A stretch of DNA of 63,801 nucleotides from Gammaproteobacteria bacterium (GCA_018674175.1 JABHAT010000030.1:1-63801), one strand, 5' to 3'. Shown: positions 6,199-61,688, numbered from the stretch's first letter. Notes: generated by a model not told the origin, from the sequence alone. Numbers and translations: made by a program.

Positions 6199-7011
6199 TT
6201 ATTCCTTCGATACATCATCGATATTTTTTAAGGTTATCAGTAGTTTTTCAATTGAGTCTAGGGGCAGAGAGTTCATCCCATCACATAGAGCTTCTTCGGG
6301 GTTTGGATGCGTCTCCATAAATATTCCAGATATTCCCACTGAAATAGCAGCTCTTGCTAAAGGTGCTATAAACTGACTTTGTCCACTTGAGCTATCTTTA
6401 TTTAAACCAGGTAACTGAGTAGAGTGTGTTGCATCAAAAACTACTGGGCAATTTGTGTCACGCATTATCACTAAAGATCTCATATCAGATATTAAATTAT
6501 TATAACCAAAACTAAAGCCTCTTTCGCAAACCATAATATCTTTATTTCCTGTTGCTTTAGCTTTTTCTACAACACTACTCATTTCCCAAGGTGATAAGAA
6601 TTGACCTTTTTTTATATTTACGGGAATATTATGTGAAACTACATTTTGTATAAAATTGGTTTGTCTGCATAAAAACGCTGGGGTTTGAAATATATCTACA
6701 ACATCAGCTATTTCATCTAAAGGAGAATCTTCGTGCACATCTGTCAAAATCATTAAATCTAGTTCTGATTTTATTTTATTAAGTATCTCTAATCCTTTAG
6801 AATAACCTATTCCACTAAACGAATTTTTTGATGTTCTATTTGCTTTATATAAAGAAGACTTAAATATAAAAGGAATTGAAAGTCTTTCGGTTATCTCTTT
6901 AAGTTTTCTTGCAGTCTCAAAATTCAATTCTTCGCTTTCGATTACACAAGGACCTGCTATTAAAAAAAAGCAATTCTCTCTATCTTTATTAAAATCAAAT
7001 TTTTTCTTCAT
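6199..7011 (-). CDS. kdsA: 3-deoxy-8-phosphooctulonate (Kdo-8-P) synthase
   Basis: A 270-residue enzyme that condenses PEP with arabinose 5-phosphate for the Kdo sugar of lipopolysaccharide. Visible motifs are [49 protein letters not shown] and [11 protein letters not shown]. Its ATG overlaps the pyrG stop (ATGA). Its presence with the lpx genes further right shows the organism makes Kdo-containing LPS. Confidence 0.97.
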
Positions 7012-14200: not shown

Positions 14201-14648
14201 TCAAATCTTCTTTCTCCAACTTAATTGCATTTCCTAAATCACCATTTATTCCGCCAGATAAAGCTATTAATCCATCTGACTTATTTGCTAACTCACTTTT
14301 TGAAACATAAAATTTATTATCTTCACCAAGATTTACATACGCATCTGTAATTAAGTTGCTTAGATTATGAAATCCTTTCATATTCTTACATAGCAATATA
14401 ACTTTTGAGGAACCATTTTTACTATCTTGATTTAATAGATCTATTTCAATTCCTACAATAGGTTTGACGCCATTTTTTATAGCTTCCTTATAAAACTTTA
14501 CCAGTGAGAAAATATTATTTAGGTCAGTTATTGCAACAGCTGGATGATTATTATCTGACGACTCTTTGATTAAGTCTTTTATTCTAATTAAGCTATCAGA
14601 TATAGAATACTCACTATGCAGATGAAGATGTATAAAATTTTTTTTCAT
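11205..14648 (-). CDS. dnaE: DNA polymerase III subunit alpha
   Basis: The 1147-residue replicative polymerase catalytic subunit (E. coli 1160). Domain order: PHP domain from residue 5 (HLHLHSEYSISDS), the C-family palm with GPGRGSGAGSLVAY and catalytic aspartates in LPDFDIDFC, LYRPGPLQSGMVDDF, GYGFNKSHSVAYA, a helix-hairpin-helix region, and a C-terminal OB fold. Its ATG overlaps the rnhB stop by four bases. Confidence 0.98.
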   Translation of the reverse strand: MKKNFIHLHLHSEYSISDSLIRIKDLIKESSDNNHPAVAITDLNNIFSLVKFYKEAIKNGVKPIVGIEIDLLNQDSKNGSSKVILLCKNMKGFHNLSNLITDAYVNLGEDNKFYVSKSELANKSDGLIALSGGINGDLGNAIKLEKEDLIEDVVKYWKKNFPNSFYIEITRTGKDFEEEYLSRALEIAEKYQLPLVATNDVRFIDKESFQAHEVRVCINNGTYLKDEKRKSDFTENQYLKSCEEMEELFSDLPSAIENSFEIAKRCNIQLTLGETAMPVFPLDDGQDENEYFQSIVSQSLNKKLLDKKIINKEPYLKRIKIELDVIIKMGYSGYFLIVSDFVMWAKNNNIPVGPGRGSGAGSLVAYIMNITDIDPIKYDLLFERFLNPERVSLPDFDIDFCMDKRDSVIDYVATKYGRDKVSQIITYGTMAAKAVVRDVGRVLQYPYPFVDQIAKLIPFEIGITLNKALEDQELKKLYSSDDDVKEIIDMAIKLEGLARNAGTHAGGIVISPEKLINYTPLYKDTSQSSLLTQLDKDDVEEIGLIKFDFLGLRTLTVIENTLKVINKNIENENHFDLNNIPLDDKLTFELLRKQKTNGVFQLESNGLKDIIKRLKPDKFDDLVALVALYRPGPLQSGMVDDFIDRKNGANVEYLHPMIEDVLRPTYGVILYQEQVMKIAQVLAGYSLGSADILRRAMGKKKFEEMQQQREIFVTGCIKNSIEKKQSEYIFDLMEKFAGYGFNKSHSVAYALIAYQTAYLKTHYKEPFLAAVLSSDMDNTDKVVKFVKECEYMNITLSPPSINMSNYSFSVTKNNQIIYGLGAIKGVGNAIIEIIIEERDSNGIFTSLDDVLRRCGTNKINKRVIEALIKSGAFDSFERSRSSLMSAYPESMKMADQNSKNIQHGQIDIFGFSAEVIENKNTSVQEDWSTIKKLSYERDVLGFYLTGHPITEYKNELKNFISNDLKSIKYNYKGRSSKNSLYKIAGVINNIRIRTTSSKDKLAQINLGDATDNIDVIANNNLLDESISRDDILIIEGTLRLDEYTNRLSFRAKAINSIENARTAYATGIKIQVVNEEDLSALVSNFENLFSSKDMKGKCLVRIDYMASGITQSLVLGENYKIAPTSDIINGLKKLDCVEGLELIYSSM

Positions 14649-15214
14649 AATAACTTTATTGGTTTAAAAGATTTTCTATGATGCTTACAAATACCATGTT
14701 TATTTATCATTTCCACATGTTGTTTAGTTGGATAGCCTTTATGTTTTTTAAAATTATACTCAGGAAACTCTTTGTCAATTTCTAACATAATTTTATCTCT
14801 TGTGACTTTAGCTATTATTGATGCAGCACTAATTATAGGAATCAAGCGGTCTCCATGTTTTATTGCAAATGACTCTTCACTATTAATATTAGGCTTAAAT
14901 ATTCCGTCTATATAAACTCTGCAATTTTTAAAATTAATATTATTATAAGATATTTTCATAGCTTCCAAAGTAGCATTATGGATATTAATTTCGTCTATTT
15001 CACGAGGATATACTATCCCAATACCATACTGAGATGCTTCTTTAATAATTATTTCATAAAATAAGTTCCTATTTTTTTCACTAACTTTTTTTGAATCATT
15101 TATTTCTTTTGGAAGATACTTTTCTTCTATTACAACTGATGCGGCAACTACTGGCCCTGCTAAGGGACCTCTGCCAGCTTCATCAATACCAACAATTGTA
15201 TATTTTTTTTCCAT
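14645..15214 (-). CDS. rnhB: Ribonuclease HII
   Basis: A 189-residue nuclease that removes ribonucleotides and RNA-DNA hybrids. Catalytic acids are in GIDEAGRGPLAGPVVAA (Asp11, Glu12), and RVYIDG and SAASIIAKVTRD motifs follow. In most gammaproteobacteria rnhB follows lpxB directly; here the upstream neighbour is gnnA on the opposite strand, with 65 bases between the two starts. Confidence 0.96.
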   Translation of the reverse strand: MEKKYTIVGIDEAGRGPLAGPVVAASVVIEEKYLPKEINDSKKVSEKNRNLFYEIIIKEASQYGIGIVYPREIDEINIHNATLEAMKISYNNINFKNCRVYIDGIFKPNINSEESFAIKHGDRLIPIISAASIIAKVTRDKIMLEIDKEFPEYNFKKHKGYPTKQHVEMINKHGICKHHRKSFKPIKLL

Positions 15215-15279: not shown

Positions 15280-16206
15280 ATGAGTAAAGTCAAAATTGCC
15301 GTTATAGGGATTGGATATCTTGGTGAATTTCACGCCCAAAAATATAAAGCAAATAAAGATGCTGATCTAATTGGGGTTGTAGATACAAATAAGCAAAGAT
15401 CTGAGGAAATATCTAATAAAATTGGGGTTAAATCTTATAATGACTATAAGTCAATTATTGATCAGGTAGATGCAGTAAGTATTGTAGTTCCAACTAACTT
15501 ACACTATAAAATAGCTAAATTTTTTATTGAGAATAAAAAACATGTTCTTATTGAAAAGCCTTTTGCTAGTAATACTGCAGAAGCAAGAAAACTAAAAAAT
15601 ATTTCCGAAAAAAATCAAACAATCCTACAGATAGGTCACCTAGAAAGATTTAATAAAGCTTTTGTGGAGCTAAAGGATAAAGTGAAAAATCCTCTATTTA
15701 TTGAATGCAATAGAATATCACCTTTTAAGATAAGAGGGACAGAAGTTGATGTTATTATGGATTTAATGATTCACGACTTAGATATTATAATGTCGATTAA
15801 TAAATCAAAAATTAAAAATATACATGCAAGTGGAATAAGCGTACTAACAAATAAAACTGATATTGCAAATGCACGAATAGTTTTTGAAGATAATTGCGTA
15901 TGCAATCTTTCCTCGAGTAGAATTAGTGATAAAATTGAAAGAAAAATGAGAGTATTTCAAAAAAATTCATATTTTTCACTGGATTATCAAAATAGTAGTC
16001 TTGGCACTTACAAAAAAATAAAAAATAAAAATGTAATAAGTATTGAAAAAAAAGAAAAGTCATTTCCACAAAATGATTCACTAAAAGACGAGATAGATAG
16101 CTTTGTAAAATGTATAAAAAATAATAAAAAAGCAGTTGTTGATGCTTCTGATGGTTTGAACGCTTTAACGTATGCTTTAAAAATCTCTAACCTGATAAAA
16201 AAATGA
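15280..16206 (+). CDS. gnnA: Gfo/Idh/MocA oxidoreductase, probable UDP-GlcNAc 3-dehydrogenase GnnA
   Basis: A 308-residue NAD(P)-dependent sugar dehydrogenase. The Rossmann motif GIGYLGEFHA is near residue 10, the signature LIEKPFA follows, and a D-x3-IHDLD segment carries the probable catalytic histidine. The call GnnA rests on context: it overlaps a DegT-type aminotransferase by four bases and is followed by lpxB. In Acidithiobacillus ferrooxidans gnnA and gnnB lie beside lpxA/lpxB, and GnnA oxidises UDP-GlcNAc at C3. A role in another 3-amino sugar is possible, but the lipid A neighbours favour GnnA. Confidence 0.75.
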   Translation: MSKVKIAVIGIGYLGEFHAQKYKANKDADLIGVVDTNKQRSEEISNKIGVKSYNDYKSIIDQVDAVSIVVPTNLHYKIAKFFIENKKHVLIEKPFASNTAEARKLKNISEKNQTILQIGHLERFNKAFVELKDKVKNPLFIECNRISPFKIRGTEVDVIMDLMIHDLDIIMSINKSKIKNIHASGISVLTNKTDIANARIVFEDNCVCNLSSSRISDKIERKMRVFQKNSYFSLDYQNSSLGTYKKIKNKNVISIEKKEKSFPQNDSLKDEIDSFVKCIKNNKKAVVDASDGLNALTYALKISNLIKK

Positions 16207-17300
16207 TACAACAATTTGATTTAAAAAAAGAATACGCTATTTTAGAAGATGAAATTCAGAATGAATTAAAAAAAGTATTTTCTAAAACTAACTTCATTGG
16301 TGGGGAAAATGTTGTTTCTATAGAAAATAATATAGCTAAATACATTGGTACAAAATATGCAATTTCTTGTAATTCTGGAACAGATGCTTTACATTTTTCC
16401 TTAAAATCACTTGACATTGGAAAGGGCGATGAAGTTATAACTACGCCATTTACATTTATATCAACAATTGAAGCAATAATGTACTTAGGCGCAAAACCTG
16501 TTTTTGCTGATATCGAACTAGGTTCTTATAATATAGACAAAAATGAAATTTTAAAAAAAATTAATAAAAAAACAAAAGCTATTATACCTGTTCACTTATT
16601 TGGCAATCCTTTTGATGTGAAAAATCTCATAAAAGATATAAATGATAGTTCAATTAAAATTATAGAAGACTGCGCTCAAAGTTTTGGCTCAGGAATTTAT
16701 TGTCAGAGAGTTGGTAGTATAGGCGATACTGGTTGTTTTAGCTTTTATCCCACTAAAAATTTAGGCTGTTATGGAGACGGAGGTATGATAACTACAAATT
16801 CAGAAGAAGCTTATAATGTAATAAGGAAATTAAAAAACCACGGATCCTCTAAAAGATATCATCATGACACTATTGGATATAATAGTAGGTTAGACGAAAT
16901 TCAGGCAGCAATTTTAAATGTCAAACTTAAATATATTGATCAATATAATATGATGAGAGTTAAAATTGCAAATATTTATAATGATAATCTATCAGACATT
17001 GAAAATATTTTTACGCCTAAAAAAACAGATTATGGGCACCATGTTTATCATCAATATACAATATCTTCAAATATTAGAGACAAAATAATGAAAAAACTTG
17101 AAAAAAATTCTATTGGGTCTGCAATTTATTATCCAGTGTCATTAGAAAAACAAAAAGCTTTTAAAGAAGTCTATAATGATAAAACAATTTATAAAAATTC
17201 AAATTATTTATCAAGCTCATGCCTTTCATTGCCAATTTACCCTCATCTTCCTGAAGATGAAGTGCATAAAATATGTGAAGTAATAAAAAATATAAAGTGA
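16203..17300 (+). CDS. gnnB: DegT/DnrJ/EryC1 aminotransferase, probable GnnB
   Basis: A 365-residue PLP-dependent sugar aminotransferase. NSGTDALH (about residue 57) binds the cofactor phosphate, EDCAQSFGS is the DegT signature, and Lys185 in SFYPTKNLG is the expected Schiff-base lysine. Expected to aminate the 3-keto product of GnnA to UDP-GlcNAc3N (an amine at C3). Its start overlaps the gnnA stop by ATGA and it runs into lpxB, so the three genes are one operon. Confidence 0.75.
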   Translation: MIQQFDLKKEYAILEDEIQNELKKVFSKTNFIGGENVVSIENNIAKYIGTKYAISCNSGTDALHFSLKSLDIGKGDEVITTPFTFISTIEAIMYLGAKPVFADIELGSYNIDKNEILKKINKKTKAIIPVHLFGNPFDVKNLIKDINDSSIKIIEDCAQSFGSGIYCQRVGSIGDTGCFSFYPTKNLGCYGDGGMITTNSEEAYNVIRKLKNHGSSKRYHHDTIGYNSRLDEIQAAILNVKLKYIDQYNMMRVKIANIYNDNLSDIENIFTPKKTDYGHHVYHQYTISSNIRDKIMKKLEKNSIGSAIYYPVSLEKQKAFKEVYNDKTIYKNSNYLSSSCLSLPIYPHLPEDEVHKICEVIKNIK

Positions 17301-17305
17301 TTAAT

Positions 17306-18403
17306 ATGAGAAAAATAATAATAGTTGCTGGTGAAGAGTCTGGAGATATGTATGCTTCAAATATAATAAATAATTTTTCAGAACAAGAAAATATAAAGTT
17401 TTATGGTATGGGCTCAAGCAAAATGAAAAAAACAAAAGCTGAATTACTTGTTGATTCCTCAAGTTTATCTGTAGTTGGTTTTTTTGAAATACTTAAAATA
17501 TATCCAAAATTGTTAAAAGCATTAAATATCATGAAAAAATCTGTAGATATTATTAATCCAGATTTATTAATACTAATTGATTATCAAGAATTTAATATGA
17601 AATTGGCTAAGTATGCCAAATCAAAAGGAGTTAAAGTGCTATTTTATATTAGTCCGCAAGTCTGGGCTTGGAGAGAAAATAGAATAAAAAATATAAAAGA
17701 TTGTGTTGACGAAATGGCTGTCATATTTCCTTTTGAAGAAAAATACTATAAAAAACATGGTTTAAAATCAACTTATGTTGGTCACCCTTTAGTTGGAAAT
17801 AACTCCTATAAAAAGAAATATTCAAAAGAAGCTAATCATATTGGGTTCTTCCCTGGAAGCAGATTAAATGAAGTGAAAAAACATATTCCCATTATAAATG
17901 ATGTGATTAACCTTATTCATAAAAGAAATCCTAAAGAAAGATTTATAATTGCTAATTCTGAAAACATTGATGAAAAAATATACGAAGAAAATTTTTCTAA
18001 TAAAGATTATGTTGAAATAATAACAAATGAAAATATCTATAAAACTATTGATATGTGTAAAGTTGCTTTAGCGGCATCTGGGACTATTACATTGCAAATT
18101 GCCCTTAAAAAAGTGCCTATGTGTGTTTTTTATAAATTGTCAAATCCTACATATTTAATTGCAAAACTTTTAGTTAAAACTAAATTCATATCTCTTGTTA
18201 ATATAGTATTGGAGAAAAAAGCTGTGCATGAATTTATTCAGGGCGACGCATCTTCAGAAAATATTTATTCTGAGATAGATAAACTTATTAATAACATGAG
18301 TTATAGAAATGAAATGATTAATAACTTAGATTTACTTGAGAAAAAGTTACTAAATGATTCTTCAAAAGTCACTATTTACGACCTTGTTAAATCTATTCTA
18401 TAA
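17306..18403 (+). CDS. lpxB: Lipid-A-disaccharide synthase LpxB
   Basis: A 365-residue GT19 glycosyltransferase that joins UDP-diacyl-sugar and lipid X into the lipid A disaccharide. It has AGEESGDMYAS at the N-terminus, SVVGFFEIL, IDYQEFN, YISPQVWAWRENR, YVGHPL and FPGSRLNEVKKHI. I prefer ATG 17306 (MRKIIIVAGEESGD); a GTG at 17297 overlapping the gnnB stop would add three residues. Unusually, lpxB is on the strand opposite lpxA and rnhB. Confidence 0.94.
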   Translation: MRKIIIVAGEESGDMYASNIINNFSEQENIKFYGMGSSKMKKTKAELLVDSSSLSVVGFFEILKIYPKLLKALNIMKKSVDIINPDLLILIDYQEFNMKLAKYAKSKGVKVLFYISPQVWAWRENRIKNIKDCVDEMAVIFPFEEKYYKKHGLKSTYVGHPLVGNNSYKKKYSKEANHIGFFPGSRLNEVKKHIPIINDVINLIHKRNPKERFIIANSENIDEKIYEENFSNKDYVEIITNENIYKTIDMCKVALAASGTITLQIALKKVPMCVFYKLSNPTYLIAKLLVKTKFISLVNIVLEKKAVHEFIQGDASSENIYSEIDKLINNMSYRNEMINNLDLLEKKLLNDSSKVTIYDLVKSIL

Positions 18404-18409
18404 ATAAAT

Positions 18410-19201
18410 TTAATCTTGTTTCGATGACTGTATTACCCCTCTCTCACTTTGGTCTATAAAATTCAAGAGATGAGATATTTCTTTATATTGCTTACTTAGA
18501 TCTTCTAATTCTTTTGTATTCGCTGGGTTATTACTTGAGCGAAATATTAATTTATATGCCTTATGAAGAGAATTTATAGTTTTTTGATCAAAGTCATTTC
18601 TTCTAAGACCTTCTCTATTCAACCCATGTGTTTTTGCAAAACTACCTGTAGCCAAAAGATAAGGAGGCATGTCTTGATTTAATGCTGCACCCATTCCTGC
18701 AAACGAATAATCGCCAATTCTACAAAATTGATGAACCAGTACATATCCTGCTAACACTATATTGTTTCCCATCTCTACATGCCCAGCTAAAGAAGTAGCG
18801 TTTGACATAACATTATTATGTCCAATGATGCAATCATGAGCTATATGAACGTAAGCCATAATCCAGTTATTGTCTCCTACTTTTGTCATAGACTGCCCGC
18901 CAGCTTTAGTTCCACGATTTATCGTGCAATATTCTCTAATAGTATTTCCAGAACCTATTACTAATTTACATTTTTCACCCTTATATTTTTTATCTTGTGG
19001 TATTTCAGCTAAAGAAGAAAACTGATAGATTTTATTATTTTTTCCAATATCACAATCACTGGAAATGACAACATGTGGTCCGATAAAAGTGTTTTTATCA
19101 ATTGTGACGTTTTTTCCTATAACCGAATATGCTCCTATTTCCACAGAAGGATCTATTTCGCATGAAGGATCTATTATTGCTGTTGAATGAATTTTAGACA
19201 A
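18410..19201 (-). CDS. lpxA: UDP-N-acetylglucosamine O-acyltransferase LpxA (possibly acting on UDP-GlcNAc3N)
   Basis: A 263-residue left-handed beta-helix enzyme, first step of lipid A synthesis. Hexapeptide repeats fill residues 1-185; catalytic His122 lies in HIAHDC (E. coli His125), and PQDKKYKGE matches the UDP-sugar site region. The E. coli acyl-length residue Gly173 aligns with Met170, as in Pseudomonas LpxA. I place the start at TTG 19201: AGGA lies 8 bases upstream and the length becomes 263 (E. coli 262). The longer frame to 19273 overlaps fabZ and is not LpxA-like. Confidence 0.93.
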   Translation of the reverse strand: MSKIHSTAIIDPSCEIDPSVEIGAYSVIGKNVTIDKNTFIGPHVVISSDCDIGKNNKIYQFSSLAEIPQDKKYKGEKCKLVIGSGNTIREYCTINRGTKAGGQSMTKVGDNNWIMAYVHIAHDCIIGHNNVMSNATSLAGHVEMGNNIVLAGYVLVHQFCRIGDYSFAGMGAALNQDMPPYLLATGSFAKTHGLNREGLRRNDFDQKTINSLHKAYKLIFRSSNNPANTKELEDLSKQYKEISHLLNFIDQSERGVIQSSKQD

Positions 19202-19211
19202 AATCTTTATC

Positions 19212-19670
19212 CTATAATTTTTGTGGTAATTCTTTAAAACCACACATAAGTTCTGCAGATGCTGCAACTTCATTATTCACAGTTGCTGTAGCATTGAATA
19301 CAGCAAATCCTCGTTTACTTTTTTTCATTTCAACTTTTAGTTCTATTTGATCGCCAGGTACGACAGGTCGTTTAAATCTAGCTTTATCAATTCCAACAAA
19401 TAAATATAAGCTTTCATTCGGCGGACATAAGCTTGGAGTTTTAAATACCAATAAACCTGATGCTTGCGCCAACGCTTCTAAAATAAGAACTCCCGGCATA
19501 ACGGGATACCCTGGAAAATGTCCGTTGAAAAAAGGTTCATTAAAACTTACATTCTTAATGCATATTATAGATTTTCCTTCTTCAAATTCCAATATTTTAT
19601 CTACTAAAAGAAGAGGGTATCTGTGTGGTAAGAGATTCATTATCTCTAAAATATCACCTTTGCTATCCAA
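19212..19670 (-). CDS. fabZ: 3-hydroxyacyl-ACP dehydratase FabZ
   Basis: A 152-residue hot-dog dehydratase of fatty acid elongation. [12 protein letters not shown], catalytic His51 ([12 protein letters not shown]) and Glu65 (LILEALAQ), then [10 protein letters not shown], are all conserved. The start is TTG at 19670 with GGAG 7 bases upstream; an in-frame TAG lies five codons before it, so no upstream ATG is possible, and an internal ATG at residue 11 would remove conserved sequence. It lies between lpxD and lpxA as usual. Confidence 0.95.
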
Positions 19671-19689: not shown

Positions 19690-20682
19690 TTATTTTTTGT
19701 ATTTTAAGAATAATTCATTTAGTTGTTTAAATCTTGCGGCATTTTTTAACCATTTCTTATTTAACATTAATGGTGTTCCTGAAGAATATACGCCAGCTTC
19801 TTTTATATCACATGCTACTTTAGCCATACCTGTTATTTTTACATTATCGCATATCTCGATATGACCTTGAATACCAGCTGCCCCACCAATCATGCAGTTT
19901 TTTCCAATTTTTGCGCTTCCCGCTATACCTGCGCAGCCTGCTATTACAGTATTGTCACCGATGTGCACATTATGTGCAATCTGAATTTGATTGTCTATCT
20001 TAACCCCATTTCCAATAATAGTGTTATCTAAAGTACCTCTATCAATAGATGTATTAGAACCAATTTCAACATTATTTCCAATTTGAACACCGCCTATTTG
20101 CGGTATTTTTACTAAACTTTTTTCATCATTTGCATATCCAAAGCCGTCAGAACCAATTACAGTCCCAGAGTGAACAATAATATTGTTACCAATTTTAACA
20201 TTATTATAAATTGTAACATTAGGATAAATATATGAATTTTCACCAATATCCACAAAGTCGCCAATATAACAATTAGCACCTATAAACGTATTATTACCAA
20301 GCTGAACATTTTTACCTATAACTACATTCGGCTCAACCGTAATTTTTTTATTTAAATTTCTTGTTGAAGTGCAAACTGATTCATGGACGCTATAAACCAA
20401 ATCATCTACTTTATTTATTAATTTTGATACTTTAGAAAAAAGTAAATATGGATTTTCACTAATAATAACATTTAAATTGCAAGATTTAGATAACGCTTTT
20501 GTTGTTATTACGACTTTTGATTTTGAATTATCTAAAAATTTTAAAAATTTTTTATCTGAGACAAAAACCACACTACTACTAGTTGCATTTTCAAGACTTG
20601 AGACTTGATCAACTTCGTAGCTTTCATCTCCAATAATATCCACATTAAGTAATTCTGATATTTTTTTTAAGGTATAGTTCAC
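19690..20682 (-). CDS. lpxD: UDP-3-O-(3-hydroxyacyl)glucosamine N-acyltransferase LpxD
   Basis: A 330-residue left-handed beta-helix acyltransferase, third step of lipid A synthesis. The N-terminal uridine-binding domain (residues 1-100) is followed by hexapeptide repeats; catalytic His237 lies in IAHNVHIGDN (E. coli His239). A GIAGSAKIG turn and a C-terminal helix end the protein. It is 7 bases from skp and 20 bases before fabZ. Confidence 0.96.
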   Translation of the reverse strand: MNYTLKKISELLNVDIIGDESYEVDQVSSLENATSSSVVFVSDKKFLKFLDNSKSKVVITTKALSKSCNLNVIISENPYLLFSKVSKLINKVDDLVYSVHESVCTSTRNLNKKITVEPNVVIGKNVQLGNNTFIGANCYIGDFVDIGENSYIYPNVTIYNNVKIGNNIIVHSGTVIGSDGFGYANDEKSLVKIPQIGGVQIGNNVEIGSNTSIDRGTLDNTIIGNGVKIDNQIQIAHNVHIGDNTVIAGCAGIAGSAKIGKNCMIGGAAGIQGHIEICDNVKITGMAKVACDIKEAGVYSSGTPLMLNKKWLKNAARFKQLNELFLKYKK

Positions 20683-27589: not shown

Positions 27590-28147
27590 TTATACTTGCA
27601 TTAAGTCAGTCTCTTTATCTTTTAGAATAGAGTCTGCATTACCTATGTAAGAATCTGTAATTTTTTGTATGTATTCATTTGCTTGCTTTTCATCATCTTC
27701 AGAGATTTCTTTCTTTTTCAACATCTCTTTTACTTTAGAATTTGCATCTCTTCTGATATTTCTTATTGCTACCCTTGATTGTTCAACCTCACTTTTAACA
27801 AGCTTTATGAAATCCATTCTTCTTTCTTCTGTTAGTGGCGGCATTGGTATTCTTATGTTTGTACCAGCAACTGCTGGATTTATTCCTAAATCTGAGTTTA
27901 TTAATGCTTTTTCAATAGCTCCTACCATATCTTTTTCCCAAACTACCAGCACTAATGTTCTTGCATCCTCTATTTTAATACTTGATACCTGTGATAATGG
28001 ACTTTGGTTACCATAGTAATCTACTTTAATTCCATCAAGAATAGATGGGTGAGCTTTTCCTGTTCTAATTTTTGCCAAGCTTGATTTTAATGACTCAACA
28101 GTTTTTGTCATCTTTTGTTCTGACTCTTTTTTTATATTATCAATCAT
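27590..28147 (-). CDS. frr: Ribosome recycling factor
   Basis: A 185-residue factor that with EF-G splits post-termination ribosomes; same length as E. coli RRF. Conserved segments KIRTGKAHPSILDGIKVDYYG, NPAVAGTNIRIPMPPLTEERR and a long three-helix bundle are present. It lies 2 bases after pyrH. Confidence 0.97.
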   Translation of the reverse strand: MIDNIKKESEQKMTKTVESLKSSLAKIRTGKAHPSILDGIKVDYYGNQSPLSQVSSIKIEDARTLVLVVWEKDMVGAIEKALINSDLGINPAVAGTNIRIPMPPLTEERRMDFIKLVKSEVEQSRVAIRNIRRDANSKVKEMLKKKEISEDDEKQANEYIQKITDSYIGNADSILKDKETDLMQV

Positions 28148-28149
28148 AT

Positions 28150-28848
28150 TTATTTTATTATTGTTCCAGTATTTTCACCATTTATAATGCTCATTAAAGA
28201 ACCTTTTTTCAACATATTAAACACTCTTAATGGAATATTATTTTCTTTACATAGCACCACAGCCGTCGTGTCCATAACTTTTAACTCTTTACTTAAAACC
28301 TCATTATATGTTAATTCTTTAAATAATTTTGCGTCTTTGTATTTCACGGGGTCTTTATCATAAACGCCATCAACTTTAGTTGCTTTTAAGACCATGTCTG
28401 CATTAATTTCTATAGCTCTAAGACTAGCTGCTGTGTCTGTTGTAAAAAATGGGTTGCCTGTACCTGCAGCAAATATTACTATCCTATCTTTCTCAAGATG
28501 CCTTATTGCCCTTCTTCTAATGTAGTCTTCTGAGATTTGATTAATTCTAACGGCAGACATAACACGACACTGAACATCAAGCTTTTCTATCGCATCCTGT
28601 AAAGCTAAAGAATTTATGACTGTTGCCAACATTCCTATATTATCTCCAGTTACTCTATCTAAACCTGCTTCTGCAAGACCGGCTCCTCTAAATATATTTC
28701 CCCCACCTACTACAACTGCTAACTGGTTATCTGTTTTACTTACTTCTACAATATTTGAAGATATTTCGTTTACTACATCAGGATCTATACCGTAATCATA
28801 TTTTCCAATGAGTGCTTCGCCACTTAGTTTTAACAAATATCTTTTCAT
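28150..28848 (-). CDS. pyrH: UMP kinase
   Basis: A 232-residue amino acid kinase-family enzyme phosphorylating UMP to UDP. Motifs: [65 protein letters not shown] and MDTTAVVLC. It follows tsf by 6 bases and precedes frr. Confidence 0.97.
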
Positions 28849-48710: not shown

Positions 48711-48738
48711 ACACATACTAAAAAACACATGCTAAAAA
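48711..48738. repeat. Tandem 14-bp repeat at the boundary before thrS
   Basis: ACACATACTAAAAA (48711-48724) is followed at once by ACACATGCTAAAAA (48725-48738), differing at one base. The pair straddles the stop codon of the outer-membrane protein gene, exactly where the higher-GC segment ends and the AT-rich thrS leader begins. It may be a junction scar or a regulatory repeat; no function is evident. Confidence 0.7.
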
Positions 48739-49946
48739 TAACGCGTCAAACGTAGCGTTAAATTACTGTCATGTTCAAACTGCGCTAGAGGTTCTGTATC
48801 ATTTGCTGTTAAATATTGGGCCTCGACTTCAAATTTCATATTTTCTCCAATACGTCTTTCATATTCAATAGAGCTAAATATTGATCCTGTTTCCCAATCA
48901 ATAATTGCACCAAATAATAATTCACTTTCATAAAAATTATTCCACGAAAGACGAGTGCCTACAAAAATATCATTTTCAAATAACGTTGATGCCGTTTTAG
49001 TTTCATCACGGTTATCGTAAAGACACTCAACTAAAATACCCAAATCAAGACCACTATCGGAAATATCAAAAAATGTATATTCGAATCCTAAAGCACTAGA
49101 CACAAAGTTATCATCGCTTTGATCAGCTATTACAAATTCAAGTTTTAAAAGCCAAGCATCCCAAGTCCACTGAATATCTAAACCACTCTGTGTGAGTTTT
49201 TGGTATATAGGCAGAAGACGTGTTCCCTCTTCATTTAATTCTAAGAATGGTGCACGTGCCGTTCCCGTAAAAACATGAATTCCAATATCAAACTGACCAA
49301 TTTGATGTTGATAACGCAAAGCAAAATCACCAGCCCACTTTCCGCGACCCTGGTTATAATCGGCGTTGTTTAAATCAACAGTAATAGGTCCTCGTTGACG
49401 CCCATCCTTACCAGGGAAAGTTCGTTCACGAAAATACGGAAGATAATAGATTTCAAATCTACCAACATCTGTGTATTTTCCAAACCTAATTAAAGGCTGC
49501 CCAAGTTTGTCCGTCTCATCGCTATTTTCAACCTCATCAAACTGGTTAATGACATCAACAACATTACGACTTTCTGCTACACCCCAAAAAATTTGAGCAT
49601 TCCCAATCAAGAGATCAAAATCATTAAAGCGTTGCAAATAACTCAACTCGCGAATATCAAAGTGCGTGCGTTCGTCATCCTGCAAGTCCAATCGCAGAAA
49701 AGGCTCAAATCGCACTCGCTTTTTTCGGTCTTTAGATACCCAACGACCTTCACCACCAAAATAAATTGAAGGTTGAAAATATTCAAACTGCCCATCATAG
49801 GCTGGACTCTCTGGGAAATATCGAAATTCTGTTGTAACGTTTGGCGTAAAACTTAGATCATTTGCCATAGCTGAGGATATAATGATGGCAAATAAAACTA
49901 TGGCCTTACAGCTGACTAAGTGCAGAAGATTTAAATTCATTGTCAT
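48732..49946 (-). CDS. Outer-membrane beta-barrel protein (DUF1302-like)
   Basis: A 404-residue protein with a signal peptide (about residues 1-28, cleavage near SAMA), many alternating aromatic/polar strands and a C-terminal LRLTRYF that fits the outer-membrane beta signal ending in Phe. The pattern resembles DUF1302-type barrels that accompany RND exporters and LolA-like proteins. The start lies 41 bases inside the preceding gene, so the two are translationally linked. It is probably the outer-membrane component, or the destination, of the export system; the substrate is unknown. Confidence 0.7.
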   Translation of the reverse strand: MTMNLNLLHLVSCKAIVLFAIIISSAMANDLSFTPNVTTEFRYFPESPAYDGQFEYFQPSIYFGGEGRWVSKDRKKRVRFEPFLRLDLQDDERTHFDIRELSYLQRFNDFDLLIGNAQIFWGVAESRNVVDVINQFDEVENSDETDKLGQPLIRFGKYTDVGRFEIYYLPYFRERTFPGKDGRQRGPITVDLNNADYNQGRGKWAGDFALRYQHQIGQFDIGIHVFTGTARAPFLELNEEGTRLLPIYQKLTQSGLDIQWTWDAWLLKLEFVIADQSDDNFVSSALGFEYTFFDISDSGLDLGILVECLYDNRDETKTASTLFENDIFVGTRLSWNNFYESELLFGAIIDWETGSIFSSIEYERRIGENMKFEVEAQYLTANDTEPLAQFEHDSNLTLRLTRYF

Positions 49947-50697
49947 TAAGTTCTACCCCAAATTTGTAAACTTCAACAAGCAACGTTGTACTCTTGCCTG
50001 TTAAATGATTATCCATCTGTTGCAACATTGGGCGATAAATTGTACCACCATAATTTTCAAACTCCGATATTGTAAGTGTTTTAAAATGCGCACCACCCCG
50101 ATTAAAGAACTCAACTTTTCGAAACTGGTTAATATCTTTATCAATATAAGCAATTAAGTACGTGTAACCTGAACGCTTATATAATGGTATCTGCTTAATC
50201 TTATCAACTTTTAAACCATCAAGTGTTATCTCTTCTAGCCATTCATAAGAATATTTACCGAGTTCTGCTGCAGTTAAATCTTCGAATGCAAATTCACTTC
50301 CAACAAACGGGCCTGATTTATTTGAAGACGAAATCCGTTTAACTCTTGCTAGTTCTGGTAAATATAACCACTGGTCATCAGAATCCAAAATTTTAGCATG
50401 AGATAATAATGCTGTTCCTTCAACATCAGGTGGTGTAAAGAATAATGTAACAGACTTATCACCGACATTTTCGTTTGGCTTCTCTAGAGTTTTAATCTCC
50501 AATTCGCGTTTAGTTGAATCTCCTGCAGAATTAGTCAATGTCATTGTTAATCTCGCTATACTGGTGCCAAAACCATTGTCCATTCGGTCAGATTTTGCAG
50601 CAATACGAAATCCTTTTTCCTGAGAAGTTTCTGCGTTTACAAATAAAGAAAAAGTTAATAATCCCATCATCAGAATAAAAGAAAATAGTTTTCTCAT
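49906..50697 (-). CDS. Outer membrane lipoprotein-sorting protein (LolA-like fold)
   Basis: A 263-residue periplasmic protein with a signal peptide (cleavage near VNA, residue 22). Recognisable segments are FFTPPDVEGTALL, DDQWLYLPELARVKRISSS and GPFVGSEFAFEDLT, characteristic of the LolA-like family coupled to MMPL/RND exporters. The fold binds lipids or lipoproteins, so it is likely a periplasmic carrier between the RND pump and the outer membrane. ATGA overlap with the RND gene. Confidence 0.8.
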   Translation of the reverse strand: MRKLFSFILMMGLLTFSLFVNAETSQEKGFRIAAKSDRMDNGFGTSIARLTMTLTNSAGDSTKRELEIKTLEKPNENVGDKSVTLFFTPPDVEGTALLSHAKILDSDDQWLYLPELARVKRISSSNKSGPFVGSEFAFEDLTAAELGKYSYEWLEEITLDGLKVDKIKQIPLYKRSGYTYLIAYIDKDINQFRKVEFFNRGGAHFKTLTISEFENYGGTIYRPMLQQMDNHLTGKSTTLLVEVYKFGVELNDNEFKSSALSQL

Positions 50698-53027
50698 GAT
50701 ATTTGTCCTTTGTGTTTATTTATTAAAAATGAAAGTAAAGTTGGCAGTACTAAGAAGTTTATAAACATTGCCAATAAAATCGCAATGCCAGTCACTAATC
50801 CCAAATCTGTATTAGGCTTGAAAGCTGATGTTGCTAGCAAAGCAAACCCAGCTGATAATATTATTGTTGTTGCCATGATAGCTGTTCCCGCCACATCGTA
50901 CGCATACAAAATACTATCATGAAAAGATTTACCTTTATGACGATAGGCTTGCATGAATTTGGAAATCAAATGTACTGTGTCATCGATAACTAGACCAATT
51001 GCCACAGCGCCGACAATTGCAATCGAAAATCCAACTGTGCCTGAGATAATAGCCCAAAGTCCAAATGTGGCGAGAATAGGAACAATATTTAAAATAACAC
51101 TCAATAGCCCAATACCAAGTGATTTAAATGATACGGCCATAATTAAAAAAATTGCTGCGATTAAAAAAATACTTCCTTTGATCATTGATTGAATATTTCT
51201 ATCTGCAATATAATTGAATAAAGACACATTGCCAGATGCAATCGCAACTGCTCCAGATGAGTTATTTTCTTCCATCCATTTAATAGCTTTTTCATTAAGA
51301 GTTCGTGCTTCAACTGTCGAAACGTCTTTAATAGTCGTGGTCACTCGCGTGCTCTGACGATCAATATTAATTCGGTCGTTTAGATCAAGACCATAGGGAA
51401 GTGAAAGTTCATATACTAGTAAATATTGGCTTGCAAGTTTTCGATTGTCTGGAATACGGTAAAATTTTTCATCATCAGCATTCAAATTTTTATTTAGTCG
51501 TTTCATAACATCCGAAATTGCATAAACATGAGCAACTTCTGGCTGGACCTTTAGCCATTCTGTAAAACGATTAACATCTTCTAAAAATTCAGGCTCAAGA
51601 ACTCCCTGAGGCTTTCCAGAATTAATCACAAATTCAATATTATCGGTTCCAAAAAAAGGTCGCGTTGCATCAATGGAGTCACGGATATCAATACCGGGGC
51701 TGAAATATTTCGACCAAACATCATTGAGCTCTAAACGTGGAATAAGTGCTATAGATGCAATACAAAAAAATACTGTTCCAAAAAAAGCTTTGTTTCGATA
51801 CTTGTATATAACTTCACCAATGGAATGAATAATTGAAGAATTTGAACTCTTACTTTTAAAAGCCTTATATTTTAAAGGTAATAAATTCATGATTGCTGGT
51901 AGGAAAGTTAAGGATAAAATCCATGCCATAAAAATACCTGCCGCAGTCATATTACCAAGATGATGAAATGGTGGTGAATCAGAAAAGTTTAAACTTAAAA
52001 ATCCAATTGCCGTTGTGATGGAAGTTAGCGTAACAGGAAATGTATTGGTTGCTACTGCCTTGACTATTGCCTCCTGCTTATTAATACCACGATGCATATA
52101 CTGTCGAAATGCAGAAAGAATATGCACAGCATCAGCTATGGCAATGGTCAAAATAATCGTCGGGGCAGACATTGATAATGGTGTAAGTTCAACCCCTGTC
52201 CAACCACCAAAACCCATACCAAAAATGGTTGATAAAATAATGATAAAAAGTCCAGACATCATCGCAAGAATAGAACGCATCATGATTAACATCACAATAA
52301 TAATTACCAAATACATTGCGGGTATAAGAGTTTCAGAATCTTGCATTCCGACCTCGCTAAATGCTGAGGACAACATTGAAGCGCCCGTAAGTTTTACTTC
52401 AATATTTGGATATTTTATTTTAATTTTATCTCGAATTTCACGCGCCATCGCTGCAGCACTCAGAACATCTTCAGCAATACTTCTATCCACCTGCAAAATA
52501 GAATTCACAATCGTGGCACCACCATCAGGTGCTGTTATAAATTTGTGCAATAGCGGTTCGTTTTCTGCAATGCTTTTCAGTCGGCGCATCTGATTAGGTA
52601 GACCAATTTCCTTCTTGTCAAAAATCAAATCTTCAACAATAAGATCATCACCTTCTGAATAAGTGTGCTGGAAGTTTGTCAAACTATCTACACGGGAGAC
52701 GAAAGGAAGATTCCAAGCCTGATTTGTTATATCGTGAACTGCTTCAATAACATGGGGTTGATAAATATCACCTTCTTTTGGGATTATAACAAAGCTGACA
52801 TTATCTGCCTTCCCAAATGTAGCTTCAAAATTTAAAAATCTTTGTAATTCAGGATTTTCTTCACCAAAAAAAATCTGATAATCTCCCGAGAAGGTAAGAT
52901 TTTTAGCACCATATCCACCAAACAACGTCAGCATTATACACAAGGAAATAGTTAGCAATTTTCGTGTCACTGCAAATTCAGCAACTTTTTCACCCAAAAA
53001 TTCAACGTTCCTTGCGATATGCGCCAT
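50694..53027 (-). CDS. MMPL-type RND transporter
   Basis: A 777-residue inner-membrane exporter with the two-fold RND layout: TM1 (about 22-42), a periplasmic domain, TM2-6 (about 230-385), then TM7, a second periplasmic domain and TM8-12 (about 625-770). The membrane aspartates expected for proton coupling are visible in IADAVHILSAF and GLVIDDTVHLISKF. Much shorter than AcrB and closer to sterol-sensing-domain/hopanoid-type exporters, so a hydrophobic lipid-like substrate is likely. First gene of the operon, 42 bases after tRNA-Val. Confidence 0.88.
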   Translation of the reverse strand: MAHIARNVEFLGEKVAEFAVTRKLLTISLCIMLTLFGGYGAKNLTFSGDYQIFFGEENPELQRFLNFEATFGKADNVSFVIIPKEGDIYQPHVIEAVHDITNQAWNLPFVSRVDSLTNFQHTYSEGDDLIVEDLIFDKKEIGLPNQMRRLKSIAENEPLLHKFITAPDGGATIVNSILQVDRSIAEDVLSAAAMAREIRDKIKIKYPNIEVKLTGASMLSSAFSEVGMQDSETLIPAMYLVIIIVMLIMMRSILAMMSGLFIIILSTIFGMGFGGWTGVELTPLSMSAPTIILTIAIADAVHILSAFRQYMHRGINKQEAIVKAVATNTFPVTLTSITTAIGFLSLNFSDSPPFHHLGNMTAAGIFMAWILSLTFLPAIMNLLPLKYKAFKSKSSNSSIIHSIGEVIYKYRNKAFFGTVFFCIASIALIPRLELNDVWSKYFSPGIDIRDSIDATRPFFGTDNIEFVINSGKPQGVLEPEFLEDVNRFTEWLKVQPEVAHVYAISDVMKRLNKNLNADDEKFYRIPDNRKLASQYLLVYELSLPYGLDLNDRINIDRQSTRVTTTIKDVSTVEARTLNEKAIKWMEENNSSGAVAIASGNVSLFNYIADRNIQSMIKGSIFLIAAIFLIMAVSFKSLGIGLLSVILNIVPILATFGLWAIISGTVGFSIAIVGAVAIGLVIDDTVHLISKFMQAYRHKGKSFHDSILYAYDVAGTAIMATTIILSAGFALLATSAFKPNTDLGLVTGIAILLAMFINFLVLPTLLSFLINKHKGQIS

Positions 53028-55867: not shown

Positions 55868-57049
55868 TTATTCCTTCATATAATGTTTCATTAAAACTTC
55901 TGCTACCTCTGGTCTTGCAAATTCTTTTGGCAAGTCCTCTCCCTTTGATAACATTTCTCTCACTTTTGTTCCAGATAAAATTACAAAATCGTCTTTTGTG
56001 TGATCTTCCACATCTCTCATCATAACAACTTTATTTAGTTTTTTTGAATAAGCTGTGTGGTCTGCTTTGAAAATTTTTATTAAAAGTGCATCTTTTGGAA
56101 CACTATCAAATATGTCTTGCGCATCAAATGCACCATAAAAGTCTCCTACACCAGCATGGTCTCTACCAACTATTAAATAACTACATCCACAATTTTGTCT
56201 AAAAACAGCATGCAGTAAAGCCTCTCTTGGTCCTGCATAAAGCATATCAAATCCATATCCAGTTATCATTACATAATCTTTTGGAAAATAATGATCAACC
56301 ATAGTTCTTATCGCGGAATCTCTAACGTCAGCTGGAATATCACCAGGTTTTAATTTACCTAATAACATATGTATTAGTATTCCGTCTGCATTGACTCTTT
56401 CGCCAGCCATTCTACATAATTCTTCATGCGCTCTGTGCATTGGATTTCTAGTTTGAAAAGCAACAACATTTTTCCAACCTTTAGATTCTATCGATGATCT
56501 AATTTGCATTGCTGTCCTAAAAGTTTCTCCAAAATCTTTTTCGAAATAACTATAGTTAATTACACTAACATCACCACTTATTAATGTATCGCCTTGCTCA
56601 TAAAATGTTTGTACTCCAGGATGACTTTTATCTTTTGTGCCATAGATTTTTTCAACAATATTATTGATTTCTTCCTCGGTAAGTTTCTCTATTTTATCAA
56701 CTTTTTGTATAGCAATTATTTGCTCTCCTTCGACATTTGGATCTATTAAAGCTATTTCTTCACCCTCTTTAAAATCCAAATCTTGGTTTGTTAAATTTAC
56801 TACTGGAGTTGGCCAAAAAAGACCTTTTTCTAGCTTCATGTTATTTGCCACAGAAATAACATCATTTTTCCCCATGAAACCTTCCAAAGGGGTAAAGTAT
56901 CCGGCTCCAAGCATTACTAGATTCGCTGCAGCAGCTGAGTTAACAGTCATTTTTTTCATTGTTTTAGCAGAATCTAAAAGAGCAACTTTCTCTTCTTCAG
57001 TATTTACAATTTTTGGCATTAGCTCTTCTGAGCCATGTGGTTTTATCAT
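55868..57049 (-). CDS. sat: ATP sulfurylase (sulfate adenylyltransferase), dissimilatory type
   Basis: A 393-residue single-domain enzyme interconverting APS + PPi and ATP + sulfate. Conserved sites: GAGYFTPLEGFM, the nucleotide motif AFQTRNPMHRAHEELCRMA, MLLGKLKPGDIP, GRDHAGVGDFYG and LSGTKVREMLSKG. It resembles the Allochromatium oxidative Sat closely across its length, unlike CysDN. In sulfur oxidisers it recovers ATP from APS made by AprAB; apr genes are not in this window. AAGGGG precedes the ATG. Confidence 0.95.
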   Translation of the reverse strand: MIKPHGSEELMPKIVNTEEEKVALLDSAKTMKKMTVNSAAAANLVMLGAGYFTPLEGFMGKNDVISVANNMKLEKGLFWPTPVVNLTNQDLDFKEGEEIALIDPNVEGEQIIAIQKVDKIEKLTEEEINNIVEKIYGTKDKSHPGVQTFYEQGDTLISGDVSVINYSYFEKDFGETFRTAMQIRSSIESKGWKNVVAFQTRNPMHRAHEELCRMAGERVNADGILIHMLLGKLKPGDIPADVRDSAIRTMVDHYFPKDYVMITGYGFDMLYAGPREALLHAVFRQNCGCSYLIVGRDHAGVGDFYGAFDAQDIFDSVPKDALLIKIFKADHTAYSKKLNKVVMMRDVEDHTKDDFVILSGTKVREMLSKGEDLPKEFARPEVAEVLMKHYMKE

Positions 57050-59298: not shown

Positions 59299-59880
59299 AT
59301 GATATTGATGATAGATAATTATGATTCATTCACATATAACATTGTGCAATATTTGGGCGAACTGGGATCAAATGTAAAAGTTGTTAGAAACGACATGATT
59401 TCTATACAAGACATTGAGTATATGGAACCGGAAAAAATTGTAATATCACCTGGGCCTTGCACCCCAAAAGAAGCTGGTGTATCAATAGAAACAATAAATC
59501 ATTTTCATAAAAAATTACCGATTTTAGGAATATGCCTTGGGCATCAAAGTATTGGCGCTGCATTTGGTGGAAATATAATAAAAGCTAAAAAAATTATGCA
59601 CGGAAAGACTTCACAAATTCATCATAATCAAGATTATATATTTAAAGATTTGCCAACTCCATATATAGCAACCAGATATCATTCCTTAGTAATAGAAGAA
59701 AAAACTATACCTGATTGTTTAGAAATAATTGCAGAAACAAAATCAGATGATAAAAGTGATAACGAGATTATGGCAATTAGACATAAAGATTTTCATACAT
59801 ATGGTGTACAATTTCACCCAGAATCAATAATGAGTGAACATGGACATCAAATTTTAAAAAATTTCCTAGAAATAAAATGA
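59299..59880 (+). CDS. trpG: Anthranilate synthase component II (glutamine amidotransferase)
   Basis: A 193-residue class I amidotransferase supplying ammonia to Trp[11 protein letters not shown], the oxyanion/nucleophile motif [10 protein letters not shown] and the catalytic His-Glu in [13 protein letters not shown] are present. It is a separate protein, not fused to TrpD as in E. coli. It overlaps the next gene by ATGA. Confidence 0.96.
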
Positions 59881-61688
59881 ATATAAATGAAGCGGTAGAA
59901 AAGATTTCGTCTGGCGACAGTCTGAAAAAAAATGAAATTAAAGAAGTTTTTTTAAGCATTATGAATAACAAATGTAATGATGCTGAGATCATTTCATTCT
60001 TAATGACATTAAAAACAAAAGGTGAAACAGTTGAAGAAATTGCTGGAGCAGCTGAAGTATTAAGAGAGATGTGTCAAAAACTAGAATTACCTTCTGATCA
60101 ATTAGTAGATACTTGTGGGACTGGTGGTGATGGACAAAACACTTTTAATATATCAACAGCATCTGCCATAGTTGCAGCAGCAGCTGGTGTAAAAATTGCG
60201 AAACACGGTAATAAGTCAATATCTAGTAAATCTGGAAGCGCTGACTTACTTGAGTATTCTGGAATCAATATTGATTTAGATGAAGAGCAAGCTAAAAAAT
60301 GTTTTGATGAGAATGGTATAACCTTTATGTTTGCCCCAAAATATCATAAAGCTATGAAAAGCGTTTCTACAGTTAGAAAAAACATTAAAACTAGAACGAT
60401 ATTTAATGTTTTAGGTCCGCTATCAAATCCCGCTAATGCTAACTTTCAAATTTTAGGTGTTTATGACAAAAAATTGGTTTTGCCAATTGCTGAAGTAATA
60501 AAAGATCTTGGTGTTAAGAGAGCTATGGTAGTTCATTCCGAAGAAGGTTTAGATGAAATATCTTGTGAGAAAGATACTTATGTTGCAGAACTTGATGAGG
60601 ATAAGATTACAGAATACACAATTAATCCAAAAGATTTTGATCTTGAAATATCACCTTTAGAATCTTTAAAAGTAAATACTGTAGAAGAAAGCTATAAAAT
60701 ATTTATCAATATGTTGGGGAACAATGATAAAGCTGCAGTAAACATAGTAAGTTTAAATGCTGGTGCCGCAATTTATATCGCAGGTATTAAAGAAAATCTA
60801 AAAAGTGGTATTAAGTTTGCTAAAGAAATTATAGAGTCTGGAAAAGCAATGAAAAAATTTGAAGACATTAAAAAATCAATGCCAGAAAAAATTAAAACAC
60901 CACAAATATTAAAAGAAATTTTAGAGAATAAAGCAAAAGAAGTTGCAGAAAGAAAAATTAAAATTTCTGTTAAAGACTTAAAAGAAATTGATTACATGAG
61001 TTCTTTGAAAAGAGACTTCAAAGGAGCATTACTAGATAAAATTAGCAAAAACAAAGATGCTGTAATAGCTGAGATTAAAAGGGCCTCCCCTAGTATGGGA
61101 GAACTTAATATGAATATAATTCCTGCGAAGGTAGCTTCAGATTTTGAGGCAATGGGCGCTGCATGTTTATCTGTATTAACTGATGCTAAATACTTCAAAG
61201 GATCTGGAGCAATACTTGAGATGGCTAAAAAAGGGTGTGGCCTACCGGTACTTAGAAAAGATTTTATTATTGATGAATATCAAATTGACGAATCCGTTAC
61301 TATGGGAGCGGACTGCATCTTACTTATTGTTTCAGCTCTTGAAAAAGAATTATTAAAAAAACTTTATAATGAAGCTAAACAAAGAAATCTTGATGTCATT
61401 GTAGAGGTGCACGACCATAGTGAGCTTGAAGCTGCATTAGAAATAGAATGCGATATTATAGGTATCAATAATAGAAATCTGCATACGTTTGAGGTAGATT
61501 TAAATACGACCGTTGATTTAATTCAGTATATAAAGAATGAACAACTTATAATTACTGAAAGCGGCATTCATACTCGTGATGATGTTAAAAAAATGAACGA
61601 CTGTGGTATAAATACATTTTTAGTTGGTGAGTCACTTATGACTGCAAAAGATCCTATAAACAAATTTAGAGAAATATTTACAAAATAA
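59877..61688 (+). CDS. trpDC: TrpD-TrpC fusion: anthranilate phosphoribosyltransferase / indole-3-glycerol phosphate synthase
   Basis: A 603-residue fused enzyme. Residues 1-333 are TrpD, with [35 protein letters not shown] and [10 protein letters not shown]. Residues 335-603 are TrpC, with [71 protein letters not shown] and ITESGIH. Met335 (nt 60879) sits where a free TrpC would start, so the fusion probably arose by loss of the stop between two adjacent genes. The E. coli fusions are TrpGD and TrpCF instead. Confidence 0.93.

Follow-up and report, generated by a model that had tools for sequence, protein, structure and literature searches.

A gnnA-gnnB-lpxB operon and two LpxA paralogs point to GlcN3N-containing, probably hybrid, lipid A in a gammaproteobacterium with a reduced genome

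A stretch of 63,801 nucleotides from the assembly of a Gammaproteobacteria bacterium (GCA_018674175.1, JABHAT010000030.1:1-63801; the window) carries the genes gnnA, gnnB, and lpxB as a single operon, which faces lpxA (here lpxA1), fabZ, and lpxD. Textbook gammaproteobacterial lipid A is a glucosamine (GlcN) disaccharide with ester- and amide-linked chains. Our analysis makes it very likely that the lipid A of this uncultured organism contains the 2,3-diamino sugar GlcN3N, and a hybrid route, in which LpxA1 and a second LpxA (LpxA2) would each supply one type of precursor, is probable. The GlcN3N pathway itself is already known, and common; the main interest lies in the pairing of two LpxAs with gnnA across the class.

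Within the operon, gnnA and gnnB overlap by ATGA and gnnB and lpxB by GTGA. The lpxA1 gene is convergent with lpxB, six bases lying between the lpxB end at 18403 and the end of the lpxA frame at 18410, and is followed by fabZ, lpxD, ompH, bamA, and rseP. Upstream and divergent to gnnA are rnhB and dnaE, with a spacer of 65 nt between rnhB and gnnA. Gene order, the ATGA overlap, Lys185 of GnnB, and the facing lpxA had been described in a first-pass annotation of the sequence and were borne out to the base by open reading frame coordinates and Pfam families. The operon contains only gnnA, gnnB, and lpxB and no acetyltransferase gene. Scans of the operon for promoters and terminators gave hits no more numerous than in shuffled sequences. 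Since other members of the genus and another family of the order also have gnnA-gnnB-lpxB facing lpxA, the arrangement is not due to chance. In a sample of 232 genomes spread evenly across the Gammaproteobacteria, the order dnaE-rnhB-gnnA-gnnB-lpxB facing lpxA-fabZ-lpxD-ompH-bamA was widespread and is thus not peculiar to the window.

GnnA has a Rossmann motif at its N-terminus (GIGYLGEFHAQKY), Lys93 within EKP, and a DLMIHDLD motif common to PDB entry 7bvj, which places it in the Gfo/Idh/MocA fold. The same entry was its top PDB match (E = 4e-55; runner-up 6e-22). The 7bvj chain is 86% identical to GnnA of Acidithiobacillus ferrianus and represents an Acidithiobacillus GnnA, because it is 98% identical to the protein encoded at an Acidithiobacillus locus (GnnA of A. 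ferruginosus). In a tree of 87 GnnA sequences, the window clade lies among the GnnAs linked to lpx genes, within a larger group that also holds Acidithiobacillus; on this tree, 10 changes of the lpx label were needed, compared to 22.5 in shuffles (0/500). For GnnB, whose catalytic Lys185 is located within SFYPTKNLG, the database search alone was ambiguous (QdtB, 1e-84; WbpE, 3e-77). In the GnnB tree, the window and Acidithiobacillus proteins fall among the lpx-linked GnnBs, and QdtB, WbpE, and most unlinked aminotransferases outside (4 label changes vs 16.1 shuffled; moderate branch support of 87 for the whole lpx-linked group). The host genome contains one GnnA match at E ≤ 1e-20 and one GnnB homolog at E ≤ 1e-30. 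The phylogeny that the first-pass annotation had proposed as a check, against characterized GnnA and GnnB and against O-antigen enzymes, thus places both proteins with the lpx-linked forms, including those of Acidithiobacillus, and away from QdtB and WbpE. These placements support lipid A-type identities of the window GnnA and GnnB, not those of O-antigen enzymes. The predicted activities are oxidation of UDP-N-acetylglucosamine (UDP-GlcNAc) at C3, dependent on nicotinamide adenine dinucleotide (NAD), for GnnA and glutamate-dependent transamination of UDP-3-keto-GlcNAc for GnnB. An O-antigen 3-amino-sugar origin of the pair, of the WbpB/WbpE or QdtA/QdtB type, was rejected on the basis of the trees, the operon context, and the lack of an acetyltransferase partner.

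The host genome has a size of 1.08 Mb (88% complete), and its closest named relatives are uncultured gammaproteobacterial genomes. Besides lpxA1, lpxD, lpxB, and kdsA inside the window, genes sought one by one were found outside it in one copy each: lpxC, an lpxL-type acyltransferase gene, lpxK, and waaA. Judged by this gene set, the organism is a lipid A producer. The presence of GlcN3N in this lipid A is considered very likely because the trees place GnnA and GnnB with the lpx-linked forms and the genome encodes GnnA, GnnB, and the other lipid A genes sought.

The open frame of lpxA1 is over-long (287 amino acids), the longer frame beginning inside fabZ. Homology and a ribosome-binding-like AGG indicate that the true start is most likely the TTG at 19201, just after fabZ. 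The best PDB match of LpxA1 was a Pseudomonas-type LpxA, and the protein falls into the ordinary gammaproteobacterial clade with those of Escherichia coli and Pseudomonas aeruginosa (support 99/96 in the careful tree and 98 in the other tree). It did not group with the N-type (Leptospira-type) LpxAs, and it keeps the residues of LpxAs from genomes lacking gnnA; the residues considered in its assignment were K75, K76, E200, and M173. LpxA1 therefore reads as an ordinary O-acyl-type LpxA.

When the host genome was searched for the C-terminal domain of LpxA, a second lpxA gene came to light (G000, contig C22, about 27977-28741; L002:973-1737), encoding LpxA2 of 254 amino acids. It is located in the order ligA-lpxA2-yaaA-mpl, with a four-base overlap with ligA, and occupies the same place between ligA and yaaA in the genus, a sister genus, and another family of the order. 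The best PDB match of LpxA2 was 3hsq, the UDP-GlcNAc3N-selective LpxA of Leptospira interrogans. LpxA2 keeps the catalytic histidines in its HIGHD motif, and its clade comprises the Leptospira LpxA and LpxAs adjoining gnnA in at least six other genomes (support 98 in the Shimodaira-Hasegawa-like approximate likelihood ratio test, SH-aLRT). Genomes G082, G099, G122, G160, G068, and G197 have a gene of the LpxA2 type next to gnnA or gnnB, and a Granulosicoccaceae genome has the order msbA-lpxK-kdsB-gnnA-gnnB-lpxA2 (msbA, lpxK, and kdsB named by eye). In two loci, L321 (G068) and L323 (G197), a tandem arrangement lpxA1-gnnA-lpxA2-lpxB was observed, in which both LpxA types flank gnnA within a single operon and no gnnB adjoins. 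LpxA2 is the likelier N-acyltransferase of the two paralogs and is predicted to prefer UDP-GlcNAc3N over UDP-GlcNAc. The first-pass annotation had assigned this role to the LpxA neighboring the operon, probably wrongly, as that LpxA is of the ordinary O-acyl type. Its prediction of GlcN3N lipid A stands as very likely; that all primary chains are amide-linked is probably incorrect, given the O-type LpxA1 and the second LpxA, encoded on another contig that the annotation did not cover.

Alignment columns that distinguish the LpxA2 clade from LpxAs of genomes lacking gnnA are, among others, positions 33, 67, 76, 101, 116, and 200 (E. coli numbering, Ec). At these columns, the window LpxA1 has the residues of the gnnA-less genomes and LpxA2 most of those of the LpxA2 clade. 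Among canonical LpxAs, Glu200 was present in 14 of 17 rows from genomes without gnnA and in 20 of 20 from genomes with gnnA and LpxA2, but in only 4 of 21 where an lpx-linked gnnA goes with a single LpxA (4/21 vs 20/20, p = 5e-8). This pattern is expected from a division of labor, with LpxA1 remaining of the ordinary type in genomes that have LpxA2. Lys76 was rejected as a clean marker of O-type LpxAs, since LpxA2 of the window genome retains it. At position 173, which we take to be the chain ruler of E. coli LpxA, LpxA1 has Met, as in P. aeruginosa, whereas LpxA2 has Gly, so that the acyl chains added by the two enzymes may also differ in length. An E. coli LpxA sequence served as the numbering reference; the remaining reference LpxAs were taken from PDB matches.

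In the 232-genome sample, gnnA was found in 85 genomes (threshold E ≤ 1e-40). Of the 34 genomes with at least two LpxAs, 32 carried it, compared to 53 of the 192 genomes that have a single LpxA (Fisher p = 9e-14). By descent, the genomes are not independent samples, although more than 20 families are represented. Several loci of Gammaproteobacteria, Deltaproteobacteria, and Omnitrophota have lpxB immediately after gnnA, without an intervening gnnB (L282, L283, L061, L063, L066), and no GnnB homolog at E ≤ 1e-30 was found in genomes G155 (L282) and G121. At L285 (G207), gnnB appeared in two tblastn pieces and is possibly frameshifted.

The LpxB tree shows a related split. LpxBs encoded directly after gnnA or gnnAB group apart from most lpxA-linked LpxBs, with 5 label changes compared to 16.4 in shuffles (0/500); the LpxB of Acidithiobacillus is placed among the lpxA-linked sequences, and the tree joins two long branches. 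In G014 (L212), from a third family of the same order, rnhB adjoins an lpxB of the gnnA-linked type and gnnAB are absent, and its relative G016 shows only one LpxA. This fits a joint loss of gnnAB and LpxA2, both assemblies being incomplete.

From gene identity, operon structure, tree placements, and co-occurrence, we infer the following enzyme activities, division of labor, and lipid A structure. GnnA would oxidize the 3-OH of UDP-GlcNAc and GnnB transaminate the product, yielding UDP-GlcNAc3N for lipid A. LpxA2 would place a 3-hydroxyacyl chain on the 3-amine of UDP-GlcNAc3N, and LpxA1 would go on adding an ester-linked chain to UDP-GlcNAc. Both precursors would be carried on by LpxC, LpxD, and the gnnA-linked type of LpxB to a hybrid or mixed lipid A with GlcN3N and GlcN. 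Resistance to alkaline and enzymatic deacylation, which the first-pass annotation had ascribed to the whole molecule, is a matter of general amide chemistry and would cover the amide-linked part only.

Several observations weigh against this reading. Between the window GnnA and the Acidithiobacillus enzyme (7bvj), identity is only 34%, and the best NCBIfam match of the window protein, NF040723, stayed below its cut-off (211.6 bits vs 450); as this model was built on archaeal UDP-GlcNAc 3-dehydrogenases, it does not define the bacterial GnnA family. The lpxA2 gene is located far from gnnA in the host genome, the link of LpxA2 to Leptospira is weaker in the careful tree (94/65, in a wider group), and Lys76 is kept although lost in most of the LpxA2 clade. 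A phylogenetically paired test of E200/K75 yielded three to six independent contrasts, each of them equal or in the expected direction, a number that cannot reach significance, and position 75 was chosen after the data had been seen. Many gnnA genomes have a single LpxA, so the pathway does not require LpxA2. In Segatella copri, two LpxAs go with a diglucosamine lipid A, and two LpxAs therefore need not mean GlcN3N (PMC12643348).

The last two points, together with the position of gnnA-gnnB-lpxB against lpxA1, would also suit an all-GlcN3N lipid A as in A. ferrooxidans, with LpxA1 N-acylating UDP-GlcNAc3N at both positions and LpxA2 serving as a paralog for another chain length or growth condition. 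The differing ruler residues (M173 in LpxA1, Gly in LpxA2) and the two LpxAs of Psychrobacter cryohalolentis, speculatively tied to chain use, point the same way. However, LpxA1 retains the residues of LpxAs from gnnA-less genomes, LpxA2-type genes occur within gnnA operons in several lineages, and two LpxAs strongly track gnnA, which makes this alternative unlikely. Because LpxA1 is of the O-type and the second LpxA is the likelier N-acyltransferase, a mixed or hybrid backbone is more probable. Use of the UDP-GlcNAc3N for O-antigen, capsule, or another glycan instead of lipid A is very improbable: members of these enzyme families do act on O-antigen 3-amino sugars, and GnnA/GnnB relatives are in some cases encoded apart from lpx genes (Endozoicomonas, G033, G036), but the translational coupling to lpxB is conserved in two families of the order and is widespread across the class, the operon includes no acetyltransferase, and both trees point to lpx-linked forms. 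That GnnA and GnnB are relics, with little or no GlcN3N reaching lipid A, is hardly credible, for although losses do occur, as in the sister family (G014, L212) that has the gnnA-linked LpxB type without gnnAB, both frames are intact and 64-76% identical across a genus with highly reduced genomes of about 1 Mb.

Coordinates and assignments of the genes in the window discussed here are given in Table 1.

Table 1. Lipid A-related genes and the neighboring rnhB in the window.
Gene	Position	Strand	Assignment
gnnA	15280-16206	+	308 aa; Pfam GFO_IDH_MocA 2.6e-31; predicted NAD-dependent UDP-GlcNAc 3-dehydrogenase (Gfo/Idh/MocA)
gnnB	16203-17300	+	365 aa; DegT_DnrJ_EryC1 1.7e-112; Lys185; predicted pyridoxal phosphate-dependent aminotransferase making UDP-GlcNAc3N
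lpxB	17297-18403	+	368 aa; LpxB (Pfam) 5.5e-89; TIGR00215 244.6 bits (cut-off 190); lipid-A-disaccharide synthase, gnnA-linked LpxB type
lpxA1	18410-19201	-	TIGR01852 308.7 bits; UDP-GlcNAc acyltransferase, predicted ordinary gammaproteobacterial O-type; TTG start 19201; frame open to 19273
fabZ	19212-19670	-	NF000582 197.6 bits, over cut-off; 3-hydroxyacyl-ACP (acyl carrier protein) dehydratase
lpxD	19690-20682	-	TIGR01853 366.7 bits, over cut-off; UDP-3-acyl-glucosamine N-acyltransferase
rnhB	14645-15214	-	divergent neighbor of gnnA; marks the conserved locus together with dnaE
kdsA	6199-7011	-	TIGR01362 378 bits, over cut-off; 3-deoxy-8-phosphooctulonate synthase, 3-deoxy-D-manno-octulosonic acid (Kdo) supply for lipopolysaccharide

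Elsewhere in the window, three further regions were read by eye. A single frame of 603 amino acids at 59877-61688 reads as a trpD-trpC fusion; an ATP sulfurylase-like gene at 55868-57049 would fit a sulfur-oxidizing lifestyle; and three same-strand genes at 48732-53027 appear to encode a large RND/MMPL-type transporter, an outer-membrane lipoprotein-sorting-like protein, and a beta-barrel-like protein.

If the assignments hold, a marine lineage with a reduced genome of about 1 Mb has retained a route to diamino sugars. Since 85 of the 232 genomes carry gnnA, lipid A with a diamino sugar probably occurs far more often in the class than the few characterized species suggest. The two-LpxA pattern could serve as a genomic marker for hybrid backbones, and paralogs of one cell make the origin of LpxA substrate choice testable. 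We tentatively propose that a gammaproteobacterial N-branch, consisting of GnnA, GnnB, a dedicated LpxA2, and a matching LpxB type, might exist beside the O-branch in one cell and be gained or lost as a unit. If true, many environmental Gammaproteobacteria would make asymmetric lipid A with different chains at the amide and ester positions, LpxA1 having the short-chain ruler Met173 and LpxA2 Gly. Loss of gnnA/gnnB in Campylobacter increased TLR4 activation and sensitivity to antimicrobial peptides, according to the summary of van Mourik (2010) in PMC8036547, and GlcN3N chemistry therefore bears on immune sensing and envelope stability.

Among known systems, the GnnA-GnnB pair of A. ferrooxidans is encoded with lpxA/lpxB (Sweet, 2004, as cited in PMC8036547). 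The Acidithiobacillus locus resembles that of the window in the two enzyme families, in the neighborhood bamA-ompH-lpxD-fabZ-lpxA ... lpxB-rnhB-dnaE, and in the position of gnnAB directly upstream of lpxB. However, Acidithiobacillus has lpxA-gnnA-gnnB-lpxB collinear and a single LpxA, whereas in the window gnnA-gnnB-lpxB is inverted to face lpxA and the genome encodes two LpxAs; the window LpxB also belongs to another group, and GnnA is just 34% identical. The host genome thus differs from the A. ferrooxidans type of cluster, which is collinear with a single N-acylating LpxA. At Ec67 and Ec200, LpxA2 has residues of the same kind as L. interrogans LpxA, and both have a gap at Ec106, but LpxA2 differs by keeping Lys76 and by missing part of the C-terminal domain. 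GlcN3N does occur in Gammaproteobacteria, since the lipid A of Legionella pneumophila has it; there, a GlcN3N disaccharide backbone with amide-linked chains was reported (PMC7956469), not a hybrid. The closest chemical precedent is Capnocytophaga canimorsus, which likewise combines gnnA, gnnB, and two lpxA genes in one genome. This species belongs to the Bacteroidetes and has lpxA and lpxA' clustered, whereas the window genome has lpxA2 at ligA-yaaA and lpxA1 at gnnAB-lpxB. The C. canimorsus backbone was chemically determined to be GlcN3N-GlcN, and its authors tie the two lpxA genes to this hybrid (PMC3342949).

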